A model generated the notes under the pieces. That model saw only the letters and a program-made list of their open reading frames with translations. It searched no databases and had not been told where the DNA came from. Below are positions 13,705-62,625 of a stretch of 64,000 nt of DNA, one piece after another (position 1 is the stretch's first letter; each line of letters opens with the position of its first letter). The DNA is from Rhizophagus irregularis (taxonomy: Eukaryota > Glomeromycota > Glomeromycetes > Glomerales > Glomeraceae). The translations under genes were made by a program, and so were the position numbers. Location of the stretch: assembly GCF_026210795.1 (NCBI RefSeq), contig NC_089438.1, positions 496,001 through 560,000 of the forward strand, read 5' to 3'.

Positions 13705-14570
13705 TTTACACACATCTAGAAAACTGGCAATACTCCATTCAGAGAGCTTTCGTCTGTTGTCTAGTGTTTCAATACAAAATAGTGCTGTAACTTGGTAAAT
13801 AATTGCCCATAAATTTTTGATCAGATTTAAGTCAGGACCACTCTAACACTACAAAGGCTTTTGCAAGATGGCTGGTATGCTTGGGATCGTTGTCTTGTTA
13901 GAAGCGCCAATGATCACCAAGTATCTGGGAGATCTCAGGAATATGTGTACAAAGGATTTTCACATAAAATTTGGCGTTCATAATTTGTTCAAAACAAAAT
14001 ATTTTGTTTTCCCTTTCGTGCAGAAACCACCCCACGCCATAAATCTTCATACAATCTTTAGGTATAAGCCGAACCAGTCTTTCTCCTTTATACCATCGTT
14101 CAACGGTGTTTCTAAATAGTTGAAAAGCAGTTTCATCAGTAAAAATAGTTTTATCCTATCAGTTATTAATATGTTTTTTGCCCACTCCACATGCTTTACC
14201 TTGTGTGTTTCGGTCAGTATAGGGGTTGCTTTAGGCAGTCTTTTTACATAACCAATACTTGAAAGATGCCTTCCAATGGTTCTATACGATACTTCTACGC
14301 CTATATTTTCTAATTTTCTTGCCAAAGTTCTTGTGGAAAGAGAGGTATCATGCCTTACATATGACCAAGTGCATGGGAGACATTTGCGGTTATCTTTTTG
14401 GGTCTCCAGCATGCTTTATAGTCCCATTTTCTTTTAATATTTTTTATAGTATCGTAAATAGTGGACTTTGGGATGTTTGTTAACCTATGTAATTCTTTTA
14501 CACTATGAATACTGTTATTCTATAAATGTAATAAGACTTCACGAGACGTTTTTTTATTCAAAGAAGACAT
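13705..14570 (-). pseudogene. Tc1/mariner transposase, inactivated
   Basis: The ATG is at 14570 (MSSLNKKTSREVLLHL, then a stop). A helix-turn-helix region follows (LHRLTNIPKSTIYDTI), then after a frameshift STRTLARKLENIGVEVSYRT and HLSSIGYVKRLPKATP, the paired-like DNA-binding domain. The first catalytic Asp region (IFTDETAF-like) is only recoverable by changing frame near 14130. The second catalytic block QDNDPKHTSHLAKAF is intact at about 13900-13850. In the third block the sequence reads PDLNLIKNLW, so the catalytic acidic residue is Lys. Several stops and frameshifts make this copy dead. Its C-terminal tail and 3' end have been amplified in the adjacent 11924-13691 repeats. Confidence 0.8.
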
Positions 14571-20609: not shown

Positions 20610-23486
<2,877 letters not shown>

Positions 23487-27819: not shown

Positions 27820-30176
27820 AAGTGTATGCCCAAATATTCTAAAAAAGAATTGGTCACCAGCGCTTACAATTTCAAAAGGTAGATCTGTTACAAGACTGTT
27901 GTAATGCTTTCTATGTAAGAGTTTAATAAACTTTTTATTATTTAAGTACTACTGTCAATTTGTTCATTGTTGACTGATCCAAACCCAGGTATATATATTA
28001 TTATACTATCATCATATTCGTCATTTCCTTGATTTATTTCTCTGATTCTTACCAATATAAGCTATTAATATTAATAGATTATCCACATGAATGTGAAATT
28101 GCTCATGTATATAAAACTGATCGCACTCGTTATGAAGCTAATTGCAGAGCATGGACTCGCGAATATGCTATGGGTAAGTATAGCTAATCTTATGACCTCC
28201 AGTTGAAGGTTTTGGAAACTCGTGCTTTTTAAAATTTTATTTTTAATGTTCTATTTCTAAAGTAAGTGCTGGTCCTTGGCATTTGGAATATTACAAAGAA
28301 GAAATAAAAGATATCAATGGTAGACGTTGCAATGTAATGATCTGTAAATTAGAAGATTCTGGTAATACACCATGTGGAAAATCTTACGCCATAAGCCATG
28401 GACAAGCAATTATTCATTTAATGAACTGTCATGACATTTATGTTAACAAATATGGAAAAGTGAGAATTACTTTTTTATTAATTATTCATCTCAAACCTAT
28501 AATGTATCATATTGTACGATTAATAATCTTTAAATTCCATTTGATAGCGCAAAATTTTCGATAAACAACAAATATTAGATGCAAATAGACATTCTGAAAT
28601 AGAACAGGAAGAATTATGGAAGATACTTACTGAATTGATAATAGAAGATTCTCAATTTATAAACGTTATTGCAAGAGAAAAATTTCGTCAATTTACTCAT
28701 AAACTTAATCCTGATTTTATTATGCCATGTCAAGAATCAGTTATCCATGCATCCTATATGTCCTCATTCTTACAACTTCAACAATTTATCAAAAATGAAG
28801 CTACGTCTATTTCTTTGGCAGTAGATATCTGGACAGCTAAAAATCGTCATGATTATTTAGGCATCAACTGCTCATTTTTGGATCAAAAGTTTGAATTACA
28901 TGAAATTACCTTAGATATTGCTGATATTACTTATTTTGAAACTCGTTATACTTCAGAACATATATTAGATGCTCTTGACGATGTGTTATCCAGATGGAAA
29001 ATTCGTGATTTAATATTCACCATTACAACTATCAATAGGAGTGATATAAAAAAGGCAATACTTGACATGGAAAAAACAAACTGGTTAGGTTGTATCGAAC
29101 ATACAATACATTTAATAATTAGAAAGGTGTTGAAACCAGCTGAAATATTAATAGCACGTGCAGAAAATTATTATGATTTTTTGAAAAAAAAAAGAATTTT
29201 TTGAAAAAGGCAAAAAAAGTATTGTAAGTACATTAATTATTTACATAAACCACTTTTAAAACTTACATTAATAATTTTATACTTATAGAATTTCTCAAAA
29301 CTTCTATACACTATTATGGATTTTCCAACATATTGGGATTATTCTAGCTCTGACACTGAAGAGTATGAGAAAATCAGGCTAACTCAAGATGAACAGAATT
29401 TGATTCGGGATCTTAAATCAATTTTATGCCCATTTTTAGAAATTGCTAAACTTTTAAGAAAAGGCAACCATTATACTTATTCTTTAATAAATCCCGCATT
29501 ACTTGAAATTAAGAATAAATTTTACTTAGAAAATGTTAATACGGTAGAAATTAATTTTGAAGATAAGGAATTAAATTTTAATACGAGAATTCAAATTGAT
29601 GAGCCTGTAAATTGTGCTGGTCTTATTGATAAAATAAATCACACCCTCTCTGCTGCTATAGATCATTACTGGAAAGTTCTCTCAGATCCGGAATTAATTC
29701 TTTATAGCCTTTTAGATCCTAGAATTAAAAGATTATCATTTGTATCCACTTCAAAAAGATATGCCGTTGAGGATTTATTGCGCAAAAAATATAGAGAAAT
29801 GAAATCAACTATGGAAACCGAAAATGATATAGATAGAAATAGGCAAAGTCAAAGGATAACAAGTTCAATCCTGGCTAATTTAAAGAAACCATCTTCTCCA
29901 GTATATTCTGATGAGGTTACTGAATATTTACTTTTGGAAGAAATTGATTTGGAAAGCAATCCATTTATGTGGTGGAAAGAAAGAAAAGAAAATTTTCCTA
30001 TTTTGTACTCTTTTGCTATGAAATACTTATCTGTTTATACAACTTCAACTGTTAATGAAAAATTGTTTTCTGATGCAAATAATTTAATTGATAAAGAAAA
30101 TTCTCATTTATTTAAATATAAGATGTTTTTAAAACAATACAATAAGAATTTAGAATCAATTAATAGTAGATCTTAA

Positions 30177-35501: not shown

Positions 35502-38392
<2,891 letters not shown>

Positions 38393-42730: not shown

Positions 42731-43034
42731 AAAAAAACTTCTAATGCCAACTTTTCGCAAAAACTCTTCCTGTGCCACTAAAAGTTCCTGTTAAATTGTT
42801 GCATCATTCAATATTTGCATAATTTCATTTTTTTGTTGATCATTAAAATTTCATAAAATATTACAAAAAAATAAAAAAATTGTAAAAAAAACGTTTCAGT
42901 GTTTTTTCATATAATATTATTAAAAAAAATGCCAAAAACTTTTTTTTTTGCATTACTATTAAGAAAAAAACGTTTTGGCATTTTTCATAAAAAAAATAAC
43001 GCAAAAATGTTTTTTCTTCATTTTTTATTTTTTT

Positions 43035-44752
43035 AACAAAAAATGTCAAGACTGACGTTTTTAATTAAAAAAAACCAATATTTTTTTGATTTTTAATAAC
43101 AAAAATGTCAAGTCTGACGTTTTTAATTAAAAAAATCATTTTTTTTTGATTTTTTAATTACAAAAACGTCAAGTCTGACGTTTTTAATTAAAAAAAACCA
43201 ATATTTTTTTTGATTTTTATTTTTTAATCACAAAAATGTCAAGTCTGACGTTTTTTAATTAAAAAAATCATTTTTTTGATTTTTTAATCATAACAAAAAC
43301 GTCAAGTCTGACGTTTTTAATCAAAAAAATCATTTTTTTGATTTTTTAATTACAATAACGTCAAGTCTAACGTTTTTAATCAAAAAAATCATTTTTTTGA
43401 TTTTTTAATTACAATAACGTCAAGTCTAACGTTTTTAATCAAAAAAATCATTTTTTTTTTGATTTTTTAATTACAAAAACATCAAGTCTGACATTTTTAA
43501 TCAAAAAAATCATTTTTTTGATTTTTTAATTACAAAAACGTAAAGTCTGACGTTTTTAATTAAAAAAACAATATTTTTTTGATTTTTAATTACAAAATGC
43601 CAAGTCTGACGTTTTTAATTAAAAAATCAATATTTTTTTTGATTTTTAATCACAAAAACATCAAGTCTGACATTTTTAATTAAAAAAAACCAATATTTTT
43701 TTTGATTTTTAATCACAAAAACGTCAAGTCTGACGTTTTTAACTAAAAAAATCAATTTTTTTGATTTTTAATTACAAAATTGTCAAATCTAACGTAAAAA
43801 ATGATTTTTTGAATCATAAAAATGTCAAATCTGACGTTTTTAATTAAAAAATCATTTTTTTTAATTTTTAATCACAAAAATGTCATGTCTGACGTTTTTA
43901 ACTAAAAAAATCATTTTTTTTTGATTTTTTAATTAAAAAACGTCAAGTCTGACGTTTTTTAACTAAAAAAGTCATTTTTTTGATTTTTTAATTACAAAAA
44001 CGTCAAATCTGACGTTTTTAATTAAAAAAATCATTTTTTTATTTTTAATCACAAAAATGTCATGTCTGACGTTTTTTAACTGAAAAAGTCATTTTTTTTG
44101 ATTTTTAATTACAAAAACGTCAAGCCTGACGTTTTTTAACTGAAAAAGTCATTTTTTTGATTTTTTAATTACAAAAACGTCAAGCCTGACGTTTTTTAAC
44201 TAAAAAAGTCATTTTTTTTGATTTTTTAATTACAAAAACGTCAAGCCTGACGTTTTTTAACTAAAAAAGTCATTTTTTTGATTTTTTAATTACAAAAACG
44301 TCAAGCCTGACGTTTTTTAACTAAAAAAGTCATTTTTTTTGATTTTTTAATTACAAAAACGTCAAGCCTGACGTTTTTTAACTAAAAAAGTCATTTTTTT
44401 TGATTTTTTAATTACAAAAACGTCAAGCCTGACGTTTTTTAACTAAAAAAGTCATTTTTTTTTATTTTTAATCACCAAAATGTCATGTCTGACATTTTTA
44501 ACTGAAAAAAACATTTTTTTGATTTTTTAATTACAAAAACGTCGAGTCTGACGTTTTTAATTAATAAAATCATTTTTTTTTTGATTTTTTAATTACAAAA
44601 ACGCCAAGTCTTACGTTTTTAACCAAAGAAATCAATTTTTTTGATTTTTAATCAAATCTAACGTAAAAAATGATTTTTTAATCATAAAAACGTCAAGTCT
44701 GACGTTTTTAATAAAAAAATCAATTTTTTTTATATTTAATTATAAAAACGTT
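43035..44752. repeat. Double-palindrome minisatellite, about 29 units of about 60 bp
   Basis: Each unit has two consecutive palindromes. The first is AAAACGTCAAGTCTGACGTTTT (arms ACGTCA/TGACGT), and the second is AATTAAAAAAATCA paired with TGATTTTTTAATT. I count about 29 units by the CAAGTCTGACG core. The six units at about 44110-44430 are nearly identical (CAAGCCTGACG), indicating recent local expansion. The array fills intron 3 of array copy 4. Two single palindromes of related sequence are at 59730-59800. Confidence 0.85.
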
Positions 44753-46074: not shown

Positions 46075-47134
46075 ATCAGCACATTTTGGAATTCAAGCTA
46101 CATATGAAAAAGTAAAAGAAAAATATTGGTGGAAGAATATGAAACAAGATGTAAAAAAATATGTAAAAAGTTGGTAATGGTCCTATTACATCTATCCCAA
46201 TCATATAAAAAGGTTCTTTTACTTCTATTGGATGTAATTCATGTAGTCCTTGTGGATTATTTCTTCTTTGACAATTATCACAAGAACAGAAGAAGGAAAT
46301 AAATACATAGTAGTAGCAATAGATTTCTTTACAAAATGGCCAGAAGCAAAAGCAATAAAAGAAGCAAATGCAAAAGAAATATCAAAATTCATTTATGAAG
46401 AAATAATTTGTCAACATGGATGTCCAAAGAAAATATTTACAGATAATGGATCAGAATTTAATAATCAATTAACTAAAAATCTTACAGAAAAATTTAATGT
46501 TCAACATAAATTCTCAACTCCTTATCACCCTAAAACAAATGGATTAGTAGAACGATTTAATAAAACATTAATAGAATCATTGGCGAAATTAGTAAAAGAA
46601 AAATTAACGATATACAGAAATAGAGAATATGAAGATAAAAATTGGGATCAAAGAATAGCACCAATATTGTTTGCATATAGGAGTAAAATACAAAAATCAA
46701 GTAAAATGACACCATTTTATTTGACTTATGGAAGAAAAGTAATATTACCAGACAATGAAGAAGTTAAAAGAATTACAATGATTAAAAGGATAGAACATAT
46801 AATAGAAGAATTACCAATAAAAAGATATGAAGCAAAGAAGAATATTGAAAAAGCACAAGAACAACAAAAGAAATATCATGATAAAATTGGAAAATGAAAA
46901 CAAAATTTTCAAATAGGAGATAAAGTATTATACTTTGACGCAGCAAAATACAAAACACATACAGGAAAGCTAGAAGAAAAATGGAAGGGACCATATTATA
47001 TACATGAAGTAATAATAAATGGATCATACAAAATTAAAGAATTAAATGGGAGGATTTTAAGAAGACCTGTAAATGGAGAATTATTAAAAGAATATTTTGA
47101 TAGGGAAATATTTGAACCATATATAATAATATAA
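46075..47134 (+). pseudogene. Ty3/gypsy integrase fragment with internal inversion
   Basis: This is the C-terminal part of a retrotransposon polyprotein. It begins in the integrase zinc-binding region (AHFGIQATYEKVKEKYWW at 46077). A 111-bp inverted segment follows (46172-46282). Then come the RNase-H-like core with the second catalytic Asp (IFTDNGSEF near 46435) and the Glu (HPKTNGLVERF near 46535), and the C-terminal domain (KQNFQIGDKVLYF to ILRRPVNGELLKEYF). One TGA at 46895-46897 interrupts the frame, which continues to TAA at 47132-47134. The first catalytic Asp and the zinc-finger cysteines lie in the inverted part. All upstream gag-pol is absent: the fragment abuts array copy 4 directly, so it arrived by recombination or as a truncated copy. 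Confidence 0.85.
46172..46282 (-). other. Exact 111-bp micro-inversion in the integrase
   Basis: Read on the minus strand, this segment encodes exactly 37 codons that fit the gap in the plus-strand integrase: the zinc-finger CDNC motif, a linker, and the first-Asp block IGIDVIGPLP. The codon phase is preserved on both sides. Flanking plus-strand frames are VKKYVKS on the left and RTEEGNKYIVV on the right. No duplicated or lost bases are apparent at the breakpoints. Confidence 0.85.
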
Positions 47135-48651: not shown

Positions 48652-51600
48652 CTAAACTGTTGCTAAATTTTTTAATTCTTTTTTTTCTTGGTTTAATTCT
48701 AATTTCAATTCATTCAAATTCTTTCTTAATGAATTTATATCTTCTGACATCATATTAGTATTTAATTGAATTCTAGTTCCTTCCTGAGAATTAGTAGCAA
48801 ATTTAAAAATTTTGTATTTATCAAGATCAAAAGAATTCAACTTAAGAATATTTTCAGTTATGAGGCTAACTTCCAACTCTTTATTTTCCTGAACAATTTT
48901 CTTTAAGGAATAATAATTTTTGTTCAACTCTAACAATCCATCATTATATTTTACAAGAATACTTTGAAATTCTTTAGTATATTTATCAGTCAATTTAGAG
49001 GTTTTCATATCTCTAATAGAACCAATAGTATTTCTTTTCTTATTAATAGAACTTTCTAGATTATTACAGCAATTTTGTAGTTTTTTAATAGCTTCTTCTC
49101 GTAAAGTTAAGAATCCACCCTTAACTTTCAGAAAATTATTGACTTGATTGAAAATCAGTTTTTTTCTATTGGCATCATAAGAAGCTGAGGTTCTTAATAA
49201 TTCTTGTTGAAGTTCATTCATCTCTTTTTGTTTAGCATCTTTTTCTTTATGAATTTCTTTAGTATTTTTTCCAATAGTTAATTTATTTAATAATTCCTTT
49301 TCAATTTCACTCAATTCTTTTCTTTTATCTTGTAACTTTTTAATGCGCTCTTGATCAAGGTTAATCAGCTCTTGTTCTAATTCATTTATTCTATCTTCTT
49401 TAATCTGTAAGGCTTGAGTTAATTGTATTTTGATTTGTTCTTCAATAATTAATTTTTGTTCCAATTGAGCAATTTCTTTTTCTAACTTGGCTAACTTGGC
49501 TTTCAATTCAGTAGTAAACTTTTGATCTTGTAAAAGATCACTCACCATATTTTGCAATCTGATTTTTTCTTGTTTTATTTGTTCATAATTAACTTCTAAT
49601 TGCTCTTTTTGTTCAATTAAACTTTCTTTGTGAGATTTTAATTCTTGAATATTAGCTTCTGTTTGAGCTAATTTTTCTTGCAATTTAATTTCATCTTGTT
49701 TTAACTGGCTGATTTGATCTTGAACTTTCTGGTTAGTTAGTTTATTTTGTTTCAACTGTTCAGTTAAATTGATTAAAATGCCAGCTAAGTTTTGCTTTTC
49801 ATTTTGCAGGTCAATAATTTGGGTTTGTAAAATATTTTCTTTTTCTGCAAATTTGTTAATCTGTTTAGCTAAGTTAAGCCTCAGATTTTGATTATTTTGT
49901 TCAAATTCAAAATTCCTTTGCTTCAGGTTTTGATTATTTTGCTCAAATTTAAGATTCCTTTGTTGTAAATCAAATAATTCATTTTCTAACTTAAGAATGA
50001 CTTTTTCTGTTTGAGAATTTCTTTGTTGTAAATTAACTAACTCATTTTGAGAACTTTGATAATAAGTTTCAGCAATCTTTTCTAACTTAAGATTTTCTTC
50101 CTCTATTTGCTTATAACCAATTTGAAATTGATTTAATTGATTTTTAAATTGATCTTGCTTTGATTTTAATTCTTGAATAATGGTTTCTGTTTGGACTAAT
50201 TCATTTTGCAGATTATTTTTTTCTTGATTTAACTGACTGTTTTGTTTTAATTGTTCACTCAGCTTGTCAACTAAAGCTTGTTTTTCACTTTGCAGGTTTG
50301 TAATTTGGATTTGTAAAGTACTTTCTTTTTTTGCAAATTCTTCATTTTGTAAAGTTGAGTTTTGTTGTAAATTGACTAGAAATCCTTGAGAACCTTCTAG
50401 AATTTCATTTAATTCTTTACTAGTAAAATCAAGTAAATGACTTGTATAGCATGCTTTTGGATGAGATTCTACAATAAGGTTATTATGCTCAATTGGTGCA
50501 TTTATAAATTCCATAATATTATTTTTTAATTCTTCATTAATATCTTCAATTTCCTTATGCCAAGGAAGAAAAATCCAATCACCAATAATATTTAAAACTT
50601 CTTCAGAAGATGGCCTTTTTAATGGATCTTCATCCCAGCATTTTTTCATTAAATCTATATAACATTGTGGAGTATTTTCAATGATTTCAGGACGTTTACC
50701 TTTACAAATACTTAAAGCAAGTTGAAGATCATGTGCTTTATCATTAAATGGTGATATTTCAGATGTAAATTCCCACATAATTATAGAAAAACTATATATA
50801 TCACTAGCTTGTGTATAAGGTTGACCTCTTAAAATTTCAGGTGCTATAAATGGTAAAATTCCATAGATATCATTTTCTTTTAAAAAAGATTTTGTAAGTT
50901 GATACAATCCTAAATAATCACTAATAAAAATTCCATATATATTTTCTTTATATTTGTTACATAAAATATTACCATCATGGAAGTTATAATGGATAAGATC
51001 TTCTCCATGAATATTATCAAGACCCCTAATAATTTGATATAAACAAAATAATTTTTGTTCCCAATTTTTTGTTATTTCTGTTAAACATCTTTTTAAACTA
51101 TTCTTATTTGTATACTCCATTATTAATACATAATTCAAAGTATCTGGATCTTTTGTAAATCCATATATTCCAATAATTTGATTTGAATATTCGATAATTT
51201 CCCACTATAAAAAATAATATTTATTAGTAAATTAGTATAAATAAATTATAATATTAAAAAAAAGATAATATTTAATCATACTTCATTTAAAAATTCATTT
51301 AAACTTTCATCTGAATTATTAAGATAATCAAAATATTTAAAAATTACTTCAACACTATTATATTTAGCTTTATATATAGTACCAAATCCTCCTTTATCAA
51401 GATATTCAATATTTTCAAATTTATCATAAGGTATCCATTTTAATTTATTTTTGGAAATAAATTGATCCACAATTTCATTTCCACTAGTACCAAATCTTTA
51501 AATATAAAATGAAATGATATTAAAAATTAAAATTTAAAATAAAATTACAATTAAAAATTTAAATATTAAACAATATTAATTATACTTACTCTAAATAAAA

Positions 51601-54253
51601 TTATAAAAATTTAATATAATATTAATTAATTTAAATTTTAAATAAATAGTATAAAATAACTTATAACTTACCAACTAAAAAAATTTAGTAAATATTATAT
51701 AATTATAATAAATTAATTATAAAAAATATAGGATTATTATAGTTAAAAAAAAAATGCAATACTTACAAGCTAAAATATTTTAAACAAATAATTTAATTAG
51801 CCTAAATTATATGTAAATATTATATAAGTATAACAGAATTAAATAAATAACATACTTCCTATATTATTAAATAAATAATTTTTAAATAAAGAATTCAGTT
51901 AGTTTAAATTATATGTAATTATATCAATATAATAGAATTAAATCAATAACTTATAACTTACCAACTAAAAGAAATTACAAAATAATTTTTTAAATAAAGA
52001 ATTTAGTTAGCTTAAATTATATGTAAATATTATATAAATATAATAGAATTAAATAAATAACTTATAACTTACTAACTAAAAGAAATTACAAAATAATTTT
52101 TTAGATAAAGAATTTAGTTAAGTTTAAATTATATGTAAATATTATATAAATATAATAAATTGCTTACGTTCTAAAATATTTGAATAATTTTTTAAATAAA
52201 GAATTTAGTTAGTTTAAATTATATGTAAATATTATATAAATATAATAAAATTACTTACGTTCTAAAATATTTGAATAATTTTTTAAATAAAGAATTTAGT
52301 TAGCTTAAATTATATGTAAATATTATATAAATATAATAGAATGACTTACGCTCTAAAATATTTGAATAATTTTTTAAATAAAGAATTTAGTTAGTTTAGA
52401 TTATATGTATATATTATATAAATATAATAGAATGACTTACGCTCTAAAATATTTGAATAATTTTTTAAATAAAGAATTTAGTTAGTTTAAATTATATATG
52501 TAAATATTATATAAATATAATAGAATTAAATAAATAACTTATAACTTACCAACTAAAAGAAATTACAAAATAATTTTTTTAAATAAAGAATTTAGTTAGT
52601 TTAAATTATATGTAAAGATTATATAAATACAATAGAATTACTTACATCCTAAAATATTTGAATAATTTTTTAAATAAAGAATTTAGTTAGTTTAAATTAT
52701 ATGTAAATATTATGTAAATATAATAGAATTAAATAAATAACTTATAACTTACCAACTAAAGAAATTACAAAATAATTTTTTAGATAAAGAATTTAGTTAG
52801 TTTAAATTATATGTAAATATTATATAAATACAATAGAATACATACTCCCTATATTATTAATAAAGAATTTTTTAAATAAAGAATTTAGTCAGTTTAAATT
52901 ATATGTAAATATTATATAAATATAATAGGATTATTTACGTTCTAAAATATTTGAATAATTTTTTAAATAAAGAATTTAGTTAGTTTAAATTATATGTAAA
53001 TATTATATAAATATAATAGAATTACTTACGTTCTAAAATATTTGAATAATTTTTTAAATAAAGAATTTAATTAGTTTAAATTATATGTAAATATTATATA
53101 AATGTAATAAATTACTTACGATCTAAAATATTTGAATAATTTTTTAAATAAAGAATTTAGTTAGTTTAAATTATATGTAAATATTATATAAATATAATAG
53201 AATTAAATAAATAATTTATAACTTCAGTTACCAACTAAAAGAAATTACAAAATAATTTTTTAGATAAGGAATTTAGTTAGTTTAAATTATATGTAAATAT
53301 TATAAAATATAATAGAATTAAATAAATAACATACTCCCTATATTATTAAATGAATAATTTTTTAAATAAAGAATTTAGTTAGTTTAAATTATATGTAAGT
53401 ATTATATAAATATTAAGTATTACTTACGATCTAAAATATTTGAATAATTTTTTAAATAAAGAATTTAGTTAGTTTAAATTATATGTAAATATTATATAAA
53501 TATAATAAAATTAAATTAATAACTTATAACTTACTAACTAAAAGAAATTACAAAATAATTTTTAGATAAAGAATTTAGTTAGTTTAAATTTTATGTAAAT
53601 ATTATATAAATATAATAGATTAATTAAATAACTTACACCCTGTAGCATTATTAATTAATAATAAAGTAATTATAATCAATTAGATAAAATATTATAATTG
53701 TATATAAAAATTAAGTATATATAATAACTTACAATCTAATTATTTAAATAAATATTATTATTAGTTTAAATTATATATAAATACTTTTACATTAATATAA
53801 AATTAATTACTTACTTTCTATAATATTAGTACCGTAATTATTAAACAATTAATTAATAGAAAATTTAGTTATTTAAAATATCATGTAAAATACGATAAAA
53901 AAAAAAATAGCTATTAACTTACCAACTACTATAATATTATTAAACAATAAAATAAATTATTTGGTTATATAAATTATAGAAGTAAGTAATTATCATTCAG
54001 ATTATAAGATAATCTACTACTTACGAGCTAATACAGTAAAATAATTTTTAGAAATAGTTTAAAAAATTCAAATTATACGTTTATAATTTACAAGCTGTTA
54101 AATAATTTTCTTACCTTTATCTTTCTCAATTTTTGAAACTAGTTTCATTATGTTGCAAATTTGGTTTGAAAAAAATTTTAGAGCAATTTCAATTTGTATT
54201 AGATATCTATACTCATGTTATATGCTTTTACCTTTATCGTTACTTTGAGCCAT
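48652..54253 (-). CDS. TKL-like pseudokinase with long coiled coil, 5' codon-sized exon array
   Basis: The two firm exons are 51282-51495 and 48652-51204, joined in frame (FLNE|WEIIEYSNQ). The proposed 5' part is ATG at 54253 (54232-54253), 54115-54138, 26 three-nt modules and one 1-nt module (see 51590-54094), giving 964 codons including the stop. The kinase domain has a good glycine loop (KGGFGTIY, about 76-83) and the ATP lysine (VEVIFK, 95). The catalytic loop is HYNFHDGN (185-192): Asn replaces the HRD aspartate. The DFG site reads SDYLGL. APE and the DIYSF helix are kept. It is therefore probably a pseudokinase. From about residue 375 to the end is a heptad-rich Gln/Glu/Lys/Leu coiled coil of some 570 residues with internal repeats (QNNQNLKQRNFEFEQNNQ). 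The lead-in TSGNEIVDQFI is typical of Glomeromycotina kinase-like proteins. A cytoplasmic scaffold or signalling role is inference. Confidence 0.75.
51590..54094 (-). other. Array of 26 three-nt and one 1-nt acceptor/donor modules
   Basis: On the minus strand every module is a TAG/CAG acceptor, exactly 3 nt, then GTAAGT-like or GTATGT. First bases (lower coordinate) by triplet: TTG 53923, 53232, 52753, 52550, 51962, 51672; TTA 53535, 52073; AAC 53030, 52939, 52259, 52168; AGC 52441, 52350; ATC 53428, 53120; GAT 52646; GGA 53335, 52846; GAA 51856; CTT 54092, 51767; CTC 54025; AAA 53815; ATT 53733; GGT 53637. The last module holds a single A at 51590. Spacers are 64-109 nt and near-identical, with a CTAAC branch motif. 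Joined in order, in the phase set by the ATG at 54253, they have no stop and read through into the kinase exon at 51495. The reading includes ENWFNRIDQQRIGFEQQQ. The spacer from 54114 to 54095 is only 20 nt, so the first CTT may be skipped or used instead of exon 54115-54138. Confidence 0.75.
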
Positions 54254-58529: not shown

Positions 58530-60089
58530 TTTTTTAAAATTTCACATTTCTTTTAAAAGTATCAAGCGCCAGTACAATAGTGTTCTTTGCAAATTTTGTT
58601 ATGAAGTAAGAAGGTGGGCATATAAAAAAGTCTGAGTAATTTTCGACCTTTGAAGACGGCTGCGGGTGGCGGAATGGCGCACTATATACGTTTATGGTGA
58701 CACATGTAATACCCAATGGGTAAATCTTACCACCACCCTCAGTTACACAGTGACATTTAGCATCACATTGTCACGTGATATCCGCGTTCACGTTTTTTTA
58801 TATTTATCCGAGTTATCCGAGGGACGGTTTTTTTTTTACTAGCCTGATCTCTATTTGTCACAACACCTCGGACATCATGCGGTAGTCACCGCAGTATGGT
58901 AAGATTTTTCCACTACACCTACCCTGAGAGATCAAAGGAAAAGAGTTTTTGTTGTAAGTTGTAACTACGAGACTTTTCTGCAAGGATGGGCTATATTATT
59001 TATAGATTTTAGTTTCAGTGTTTTTTTTTATTTTTTACAGATTATAGTTATTAGATTTTAATTTGCCAGAGCGAAGAGTGGAGAGTGGAGACTATATGTG
59101 ATTTATTGTCTGAAGCAAAGCGAAGGAGTGAAAAGACTATATCAGATATATGTTTATGAGCATATTGGATCACATGGCGACTGACGAAATCTGTTTGTCC
59201 ATGTCATTGAAATTTTTGGAGCACCCATGATAAAAATAGTTTACTATATCAACATCGCCTCAAAATTAATCCGGAATAGTTTTTACTTATGTAAAAAAAA
59301 AAATACTTTTAATACTTACAAATTATTATAAAGTGATAATTACTAATGAAAGAAAATAATACTATAATATGCAGTGTGTTAGAAAAATTATTCACGTGCA
59401 TGTTAGCTCAAAATAAACTCAAACTTTATATTATTTAAATTGTATAGTAAACCCGAGACCCAAGGCTACATTTTTGATATCTTTGAAATTATAAACACTT
59501 ACATTATCTTCTGAAAAAATTAGCAATAATTATTTACTTCAAGCAAAAAGCATAACAGAAAATTAAATTACATTTATGAAACATTGGTGGATTAAAATAC
59601 TTAAATATTGTTAAAAATAATGCCAAAAAATAAATATATCAAAAAAACTGCAGTAAAGACAAAATAAATTTTTATCATTTAAAGTATAAAATAAACTTGT
59701 ACGTTTTTTAATTAAAAAAATGATAAAAAGACGTCAAATTTGACGTTTTCCATTAATAAAAAACATAAAAAAACGTCAAATTTGACGTTTTTTCATTAAA
59801 AAATATAAAAAGACGTATTCAAATCTATACTTTAAAAATTTACTAGTACTATTTCATTAGAATAATATAACAATCATTATTTCTTATAAATTATAATAGC
59901 AATTGAATATCTAAAATTTTTTTATTTAATAACGATCAATCAGATGGTTGGTCAAATCAGAAGTTTTTGATTAGATACCCATTTTATATTTAATAAAAAT
60001 TTACATTTTCAAATGATCTTTTTTTTTAAGTATTTACTGATATAACAACAGTAGATTAAGCAAAATAAAATTATTATTGAAGCTATATA
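58530..60089. other. Intergenic stretch with two TGACGT palindromes
   Basis: The part 58560-58960 is less AT-rich, with a small TGCGGT/ACCGCA hairpin at 58879-58894 and repeated GGTAAATCTTACC / GGTAAGATTTTTCC words, but no frame. At 59732-59747 and 59776-59791 are two ACGTCAAATTTGACGT palindromes in the same A/T setting as the minisatellite units at 43035-44752. No gene is seen. Confidence 0.4.
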
Positions 60090-60814: not shown

Positions 60815-62625
60815 ATGGAAATATCAAAAATGAACCTTAAAGAAAAAAGAAATTTATGGAAATATGTTGATCATAATGAATATCAGGTAAACAATTCATT
60901 TTATCATATCGTAATATGATTAAATTATTGTATCTTATAATTTGTTTTTTTAATCATTTATCTCAAAGAAACATGTAACAATTTCTACTATTGGTTCAAA
61001 TATTGAATCAGCAGAAGAGGTAGATGATAAAATAATTTATATGAAAGATTTAGAAAAAAGAAAACAAGTATATGGAATATGTGGAGAATGTAATGAACCT
61101 GGCACAGGAGAAGTATGGTGTCAACCTTGTAATGCTAAAAGATTTAAGAATAACTTTAAAAATTGGACTAGTGGAAATAAAGATATTGATGAATTTATTC
61201 AACAATTACAACTTAATGCTGTACATTATAGAAATTATATTGAATGGATACCTTTTGAAAAGTTTAAAGATATTACTTATATTACCAGAGGTGGATTTGG
61301 TAAAATTTATTCAGCTGAATGGCCTGAAGGATGTATTTTTACTTGGGATATTGTAAATCAAAAATGGAAAAGATACTATAACATAAAAGTTGCATTAAAA
61401 AGCTTGGATAATTCATCTTGTATAAGCACAGAATTTTTAAATGAGGTAATTATAAAAATAGTAATATAATTATCTAAAATTTTTATTTATTTTAAGATTT
61501 CCTTTCTTTTCAATATTTTTTTTTTAGATTAAAACTCATCTTCAGATTTATCTTTGGGACATTATTCAATGTTATGGAATAACCCAAGATCCAAATACTA
61601 AGGATTATATAATGGTTTTAGCATATTGTGAAAATGGAAATTTGAGAAATTACTATATGAATAATGAATCAAATTATTTTACAAAAATTGAAGTATTAAG
61701 GCGAATTGCAAGTGGGCTTTTAGATATTCATAATTCTGGAAAGGTTCACAAAGACTTTCACTCAGGTAATATACTATACAATTTTCATACTCCATATATA
61801 AGTGATTTAGGAATGTGTCAACCAGCGTATAATGAACAATCAGTAAAAAAGAACGGAATTTATGGAGTATTACCTTATATGGCACCAGAAGTTTTACGAG
61901 GATATCAATATACAAAAGCATCTGATATTTATTCATTTGGAGTAATGATGAATGAATATATATCTGAAGAAACACCTTATAACAATATTCCACATAATCA
62001 TGCTTTAGCCATTAACATATGTAAAGGATTTAGACCAATTATTTTTGAATATACACCAAAATTACTTGCAGATTTGATTACTAAGTGTTGGGATGCTAAA
62101 GCAGAAAATAGACCGACTGCTAAAGAATTGTATCAAAAACTTAAGAAAATTAAATATTATGGTTATGATAGTGATAATGAATCTCAAATAAATGAGTATA
62201 ATGATAAAATCAAATTAAACCGAACAAGTGAAAAAAGATCTAACAACATTAAAACACATCCACAAGCAATATATACTAGTAGACTTTTAAATTTCAAAAA
62301 TCTTCCGGAACCAGTAAATTCAGGTAATTTAATTTAATTTACTTTGACAACAAAAAAAAAAAGTTTTACATTACTAATAGACTTTTTTTATAGACGCTAC
62401 TCAAACAACATTACGTAAGTAATTATTTCTATTTGCAACCAATATAATTAATAAATTCCTAATATTATGCTAATTTATAGATTCAGAATGTTTTGATTGT
62501 CAATTAGACGAATCAGGTAAGATATCTACTCTTTAGTTTTCTCTTTATTTTGTTAATACTTATTAATTTATTTATTTTTAGATTTTAATGAAATTAATCA
62601 AAACGAAGAAATTAATATTGAATGA
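60815..62625 (+). CDS. TKL-like protein kinase, six exons, complete
   Basis: Exons 60815-60886, 60969-61445, 61528-62323, 62394-62414, 62481-62516 and 62582-62625 join to 481 codons with no stop. All introns are GT..AG and 64-82 nt long. The N-terminus has a small putative zinc-binding pair (CGEC at 62-65 and CQPC at 75-78). Then comes the family lead-in FKNWTSGNKDIDEFI. Kinase landmarks are the glycine loop TRGGFGKIY (about 130-138), the ATP lysine VALK (168), the catalytic loop VHKDFHSGN with Asp259 (Lys in place of Arg in HRD), SDLGM with Asp276, MAPEVLRG and DIYSFGVMM. All core catalytic residues are present, so activity is likely. The 3' end is built from tiny exons of 21, 36 and 44 nt that encode an acidic tail ending NQNEEINIE. 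It belongs to the greatly expanded kinase family of Glomeromycotina. Substrate unknown. Confidence 0.9.

Follow-up and report, generated by a model that had tools for sequence, protein, structure and literature searches.

Rows of three-nucleotide exons predicted upstream of a pseudokinase domain in a gene family of Rhizophagus irregularis

DNA sequence analysis of a 64,000-nucleotide (nt) stretch of the Rhizophagus irregularis genome (contig NC_089438.1, positions 496,001 to 560,000; hereafter the window) pointed to a pseudokinase gene on the minus strand, the coding sequence of which is very probably divided among 30 exons: two 5' exons, 25 exons of 3 nt each, one exon of 1 nt and two kinase exons, joined in order in phase 1 with every small exon included (Table 1). 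Joined in this way the exons form one open frame of 962 codons. The deduced N-terminal segment encoded by the array, ALENWFNRIDQQRIGFEQQQLIGTFE, precedes the kinase sequence beginning FGTSGNEIVDQFISK, and one Glu codon (G-A-A) is spread across three exons, including the 1-nt exon A.

The small exons are recognized as AG-NNN-GT modules, 26 of which follow one another between 54094 and 51672 on the minus strand (27 matches, that at 53813 being an overlap). The original prediction had counted 26 consecutive modules; all 26 motifs were found, and 25 were accepted as exons. The module at 54094 (ACAG-CTT-GTAAAT) was dropped: with exon 2 ending at 54115 it would leave an intron of 20 nt, and in the related locus L009 this CTT look-alike has an altered donor, a further ground for dropping it. 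The spacing of 64-109 nt given for the set of 26 was borne out, 64 nt being the gap after the first module; the introns between the 25 kept modules (54027 to 51672) measure 79-109 nt. The CTAAC branch motif ascribed to these introns is not in every module: it occurs exactly, within 70 nt upstream, in 15 of the 25, and CTAAT occurs in 5 more. The 1-nt exon at 51590 lies at the very start of the range originally predicted and was not described there. Microexon 2 has a tandem acceptor, TATAG-TAG (53923-53931, minus strand), and a 6-nt exon TAGTTG would be equally in frame.

Kinase exon 2 matches the Pfam profiles PF00069 (1.8e-26) and PF07714 (3.3e-25), and kinase exon 1, searched alone, gave no Pfam match. 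In the window gene, the only one checked for this, HYN is found where HRD is expected and DYLG where DFG is expected. The loss of these two motifs makes a fair case that the product is a pseudokinase, in agreement with what had been predicted downstream of the array. We take it to be TKL-like, which serves as a label only. The long tail of kinase exon 2 looks like a coiled coil.

No other chain of at least three modules was found in the window by a similar scan of both strands. Across the genome (146,748,485 bases in 32 contigs), the pattern of two chained modules gave 365 matches and its reversed form none, and the scan for repeated modules proposed at the outset uncovered a large gene family. 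TTTTAG-N3-GTAAGT was matched 1153 times against 96 for the reversed control and ATATAG-N3-GTAAGT 2025 times against 44, which for both forms together makes 3,178 matches against 140; some of the matches listed are isolated, outside arrays. TTTTAG-N4-GTAAGT had 43 matches against 142 for its control. These counts uphold the view that the regularity is not due to chance, with one reservation: the modules of the window are related by duplication, so that its 26 gaps of 3 nt are not independent events, and the case therefore rests on the frame and stop-codon tests.

Twenty-nine loci were compared: the window, 14 loci chosen by array pattern from the listed matches to two chained modules (on C1-C6), and 14 chosen by the kinase exon alone, hand-picked and spread over 150 scored of 3601 candidates. 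Excluded from the counts were module pairs whose intron was shorter than 55 or longer than 130 nt, a leading CTT that stood ahead of CTC, one TAT match (L007) and the weaker of any matches overlapping at less than 40 nt; two TGA triplets, in L009 (a parser overlap) and L012, were kept. Between 10 and 56 modules were retained per locus, the low counts being partly due to fetch limits or broken chains, and the parser counts may include a few spurious leading matches. Arrays were present in all 14 loci chosen by the kinase exon alone, with 12 to 53 parsed modules each. Exact signatures spanning the 1-nt exon and the beginning of the kinase exon were matched 17 and 74 times in the genome (two forms), and the reversed controls gave no match.

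The distance of 3 nt dominates throughout. At sites with good donors in the 29 loci, acceptor and donor are 3 nt apart in 827 cases (685 chained pairs), 1 nt apart in 25, 6 nt in 7 and 0 nt in 6, each other length up to 12 nt occurring 0-2 times. When the nearest AG before GTAAGT or GTATGT was taken in the first 15 loci, the distance was 3 nt in 407 of 431 cases, 1 nt in 18, 2 nt in 2 and another value in 4. Half of the loci entering the length counts were themselves found by the 3-nt pattern; the half picked by the kinase exon was not so selected.

Across the family the array segments commonly open with A-L-x-N/D-W and mostly close with F, ahead of E-F/Y-G; the first kept triplet is CTC in 14 of the 29 loci. 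The middle varies from gene to gene. The residues encoded by the arrays are rich in Arg, Asp, Trp, Asn, Phe and Leu and poor in Cys. The kinase exon of L019 is 94% identical to that of the window at the protein level. When the variable triplets of the window array were compared with those of eight relatives, L019 among them, the longest shared run was 4, near the shuffled level, so that positional homology of the arrays cannot be used. Some relatives start with MGQC (L017, L018, L025) or MGQS (L007), presumably reminiscent of an N-myristoylation signal. One kinase locus, L043, is free of an array and carries CGECNEPGTGEKWCQTCNAKRLKENFKFWTSGNKIIDEFI uninterrupted; the array position seems to correspond to the Cys-rich stretch of this gene, which may represent the ancestral form. 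Array introns enlarged by insertions to approximately 160-250 nt, with the neighbouring modules intact, were seen in L005, L012, L013, L014 and L017, and GC donors (GCAAGT) replace GT in L005 (1208-1374), L012 (3640-3855) and L015 (4501-4693, 5237-5429).

The reading frame on either side of the array constrains how it can be joined. Wherever a regular expression found the 5' exons (11 of the 29 loci), they end in phase 1, and the kinase exon is open solely in phase 2 in all 23 loci with a resolved acceptor (the regular expression did not resolve it in L007, L008 and L009). The 1-nt exon A, which would restore the frame of the kinase, follows the array and precedes the kinase exon in 26 of the 29 loci; no such site was found after the parsed array in L012, L014 and L022.

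Phase-1 joining builds each codon from two neighbouring triplets approximately 90 nt apart, the earlier one giving its final base and the later one its first two. The adjacent junctions formed in this way contain 2 stop codons in 836 pairs, compared with 34.0 ± 4.5 after shuffling the triplets within loci (2000 shuffles; lowest shuffled count 18), a 17-fold depletion. Phase-2 joining gave 138 stops against 104.3 in shuffled arrays, with no sign of avoidance, and phase 0 is not open to an order test, stop triplets being nearly absent (2, at least one of them a parser overlap). The depletion was also present after removal of the framework, i.e. six triplets at the start of the array and three at its end (1 stop in 595 pairs against 21.3 shuffled), and separately in the loci chosen by array pattern (1 in 451 against 20.2) and by kinase exon (1 in 385 against 13.7). 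Among the residues formed, Trp, Asn, Phe and Asp exceed the shuffled order by more than 3 standard deviations, and stops, Val and His fall below it by more than 3; other residues show smaller shifts, and the skip-one control stays within -2.5 to +2.1 standard deviations, framework codons being included in this test. Phase and stop codons together support the claim that the modules are joined in order and that each would contribute one codon's worth of sequence.

Table 1. Predicted exons of the pseudokinase gene, in window coordinates
Feature	Position	Strand	Remarks
5' coding exon 1	54232..54253	minus	22 nt, ATG start, MAQSNDK; similar in several paralogs
5' coding exon 2	54115..54138	minus	24 nt; phase 1 at end
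Microexon 1 CTC	54025..54027	minus	framework; Ala formed with preceding G
Microexon 2 TTG	53923..53925	minus	module scan
Microexon 3 AAA	53815..53817	minus	framework
Microexon 4 ATT	53733..53735	minus	framework
Microexon 5 GGT	53637..53639	minus	framework; Trp codon from ATT+GGT
Microexon 6 TTA	53535..53537	minus	module scan
Microexon 7 ATC	53428..53430	minus	module scan
Microexon 8 GGA	53335..53337	minus	module scan
Microexon 9 TTG	53232..53234	minus	module scan
Microexon 10 ATC	53120..53122	minus	module scan
Microexon 11 AAC	53030..53032	minus	module scan
Microexon 12 AAC	52939..52941	minus	module scan
Microexon 13 GGA	52846..52848	minus	module scan
Microexon 14 TTG	52753..52755	minus	module scan
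Microexon 15 GAT	52646..52648	minus	module scan
Microexon 16 TTG	52550..52552	minus	module scan
Microexon 17 AGC	52441..52443	minus	module scan
Microexon 18 AGC	52350..52352	minus	module scan
Microexon 19 AAC	52259..52261	minus	module scan
Microexon 20 AAC	52168..52170	minus	module scan
Microexon 21 TTA	52073..52075	minus	module scan
Microexon 22 TTG	51962..51964	minus	module scan
Microexon 23 GAA	51856..51858	minus	module scan
Microexon 24 CTT	51767..51769	minus	framework
Microexon 25 TTG	51672..51674	minus	framework
1-nt exon A	51590	minus	TTTATTTAG-A-GTAAGT; phase 1 to phase 2
Kinase exon 1	51282..51495	minus	214 nt; begins FGTSGNEIVDQFISK..., glycine loop
Kinase exon 2	48652..51204	minus	remaining pseudokinase domain, long tail, stop codon

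Elsewhere in the window, a second kinase domain lies on the plus strand (61528-62337; PF07714, 1.3e-34), with no chain of at least three modules nearby. Three C-termini of hAT-type transposases (PF05699) were found on the plus strand at 22581-23486, 29289-30176 and 37511-38392, each closely preceded by an open frame, together with an integrase core domain (46247-46897, plus strand; PF00665, PF13683), probably of a retroelement, and a helix-turn-helix domain of a Tc3-type transposase (14047-14415, minus strand; PF01498). An array of repeats of approximately 59 base pairs (bp) at 43021-44652 contains the inverted motif ACGTCAAGTCTGACGT, and a second repeat array, at 59693-59816, shares with it a stretch resembling GACGTTTTT.

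The arrays were also compared for the way in which they change in DNA, and the limits attached to the results in this paragraph, together with the observations in the next, weigh against the proposed gene and its interpretation. Within loci, 192 near-identical module pairs differ at 119 of 576 exon bases (20%) and at 230 of 11520 flanking bases (60 per pair; 2%), figures that come from pairs chosen for similar flanks. In pairs chosen on the far left part of the intron only, differences amount to 90 of 453 bases in the exon (19.9%), 60 of 1812 in the near left flank (3.3%) and 282 of 2718 in the right flank (10.4%, a value obtained ungapped and inflated by indels); of these 151 pairs, 92 match fully in the near flank and show no more than one difference in the right flank, and the triplet differs in 21 of the 92. 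The sequence classes of acceptor and donor are linked across the exon by 1.125 bits (shuffled maximum 0.032) and across the intron by 0.09 bits (435 pairs), a small value that nevertheless lies above the highest shuffled one (0.038); the classes were defined by eye, and both sides were assigned to a class in 466 of the 906 modules. Linkage across the exon, and hardly across the intron, is most simply read as exchange inside introns, by which a cassette made of half an intron, a codon and half an intron would be moved. Exact repeats spanning 12 triplets in L029, 6 in L017 and 5 in L023 record block duplications.

Frame, order, stop avoidance, module lengths, the excess variation of the triplets, cassette linkage and block duplications can all be read in the DNA itself; the steps from DNA to protein are indirect throughout, being known here from DNA alone, which is also one of the points in favour of the non-coding repeat considered below. 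An in-frame stop (ATT then AGA) occurs in L018 and L020, which may be pseudogenes or may skip a module, and the acceptor has been lost in some modules of L013 and L016. An extra exon is possible in L018 and L025, where exon 2 and the first kept module lie more than 300 nt apart. The array of L022 was followed only to a point short of the kinase exon. A search for retrocopies by junction pattern gave 36 matches with at most 3 mismatches and 13 with at most 2, four of the latter being inspected; in the twelve places read, i.e. eight long open frames at kinase exons and these four junction matches, there was no retrocopy. The long open frames at kinase exons proved to be open intron and were rejected as retrocopies; L043 was rejected also, the array-free kinase being contiguous there.

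The excess of change peaks at the three exon bases, which would also be expected if the exons were real and the diversity of their triplets came from local mutation at the acceptor-donor junction in place of selection. This is unlikely: the residues formed are non-random when compared with shuffled order, although conserved framework codons contribute to that result, and we know of no mutator aimed at acceptor-donor junctions.

Somewhat less probable still is that the array generates isoforms, real exons being used in some messages and left out of others, whether randomly or by regulation, to give one-residue variants of the protein. The original prediction had looked to such skipping, and it is true that, all modules being 3 nt long, any skip stays in frame, as would a message lacking all of them and retaining the 1-nt exon. 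The junctions created by skipping are, in contrast to the adjacent ones, not depleted of stop codons: joining across one omitted module gives 24 stops in 776 junctions against 28.2 ± 4.0 shuffled, and across two, 35 against 26.2 ± 3.9. Without the framework the corresponding counts are 18 against 18.1 and 21 against 15.9, and triplets four apart give 20 against 14.2. Stops arise at just 24 of the 776 skip-one junctions, so that selection against occasional skipping could easily go unnoticed, and skipped products may exist. Selection appears to protect the full, ordered product and not the skipped ones, so that skipping does not hold up as the purpose of the array.

A non-coding AT-rich minisatellite lying in one long intron, with splice-like motifs by chance and a kinase spliced or started otherwise, fits the strong tandem repeat signal and the duplication of the modules and is nevertheless very improbable, because it accounts neither for the avoidance of stops between triplets approximately 90 nt apart, nor for the excess of change exactly in the triplet, nor for the frame-bridging 1-nt exon and the recurrent first and last triplets, because the order of the units depends on the reading frame, contrary to a non-coding repeat, and because the direct splice from the phase-1 5' exons to the kinase exon, envisaged in the original prediction as the contrary outcome (to 51495), runs into a stop 6-17 codons on in all 23 resolved loci, 17 codons on in the window gene.

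In the proposed 30-exon gene, the triplets of the array would be spliced in genomic order, each residue being coded across two neighbouring exons. Splicing would proceed stepwise, each step extending the growing exon to the next strong donor, since 3 nt leave no room for the complexes of both splice sites at the same time; the prevalence of strong donors (GTAAGT in 740 of the 906 modules) fits this model. The near-identical introns could provide homology for unequal exchange or conversion, and one-codon cassettes could be gained, lost or swapped without a break in the frame. Diversifying selection on the triplets would then produce a fast-changing surface, the most likely role of which would be the recognition of self and non-self or of a partner. 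More tentatively, the arrays may represent an architecture for diversity, a hypervariable segment stored one codon per exon and recombined via intron halves into a repertoire of recognition pseudokinases (for self and non-self among hyphae or nuclei, or for plants or microbes as partners), which may still be changing from nucleus to nucleus in one mycelium; we regard this wider proposal as possible and less likely than not. The diversity observed lies between genes, in DNA. Fungal recognition genes of other kinds are reported to be hypervariable (PMC10197012), and nothing here ties these kinases to them.

If the proposed structure is correct, a segment of protein would be spread over dozens of successive exons with a single codon's worth in each. 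This would probe the lower limit of exon size and put splicing fidelity to the test, with 29 introns in the window gene alone. It would also constitute a route to protein diversity in which cassettes of one residue each are shuffled by way of introns. Gene models of R. irregularis, for which 2,533 kinase genes have been reported (PMC10234402), may omit or misstate the N-termini of quite a large group of kinases (the end signatures were matched exactly 91 times), and the kinases with arrays would be candidates for a recognition system of arbuscular mycorrhizal fungi.

In agreement with the original prediction, which knew of no described system of this form, no description of rows of one-codon exons was found in the literature searched; preprints and most subscription papers were outside its scope, so that an unseen report is possible. 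The MEG genes of Schistosoma mansoni, a family of 35 genes for secreted proteins that is hard to annotate automatically, have 10-20 exons per gene of 6-81 bp according to the text of the report (3-81 according to its abstract), mostly of 15 bp, and introns of 100 bp to 5 kb (PMC10526429). They resemble the present genes in being a variable family with rows of very short exons, mostly in multiples of three; here, in contrast, the 25 exons of the row are all of 3 nt, the introns are of approximately 90 nt and mutually homologous, and a pseudokinase is attached. At the ratchet points of long Drosophila introns, apparent exons of zero nt occur and most cryptic exons are skipped (PMC8605326). Acceptor and donor are juxtaposed there, and a long intron is removed stepwise, as we suppose here; the sites of the present arrays are 3 nt apart and not directly juxtaposed, and each step would leave behind 3 coding nt, 25 times, between introns of 79-109 nt.

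Single very short exons are better documented. Fusarium CYP621A has one 1-nt exon per gene, confirmed by reads, with 20 orthologues (PMC12940212). As in that gene, the 1-nt exon described here is needed for the frame and is argued from relatives; unlike it, the exon stands in many paralogs at the end of a row of 3-nt exons, splits a codon over three exons and is known from DNA alone. Human RPS24 has a spliced 3-bp exon among the three microexons of one gene (PMC11162997, PMC12686416), a 3-nt exon like those of the array; as far as the consulted parts of these reports go, a row of such exons in a family with variable triplets is what distinguishes the present case. In Trichoderma Xlr2, also a very short exon in a filamentous fungus, a single exon of 20 nt acts as a switch, and functional microexons had not been described in filamentous fungi before it, according to that report (PMC11121469). 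The modules share with coding microexons the flanking AG and GT around a very short exon that would keep the frame, and exon A shares with single-nucleotide exons that the frame fails without it and that it is conserved in relatives.

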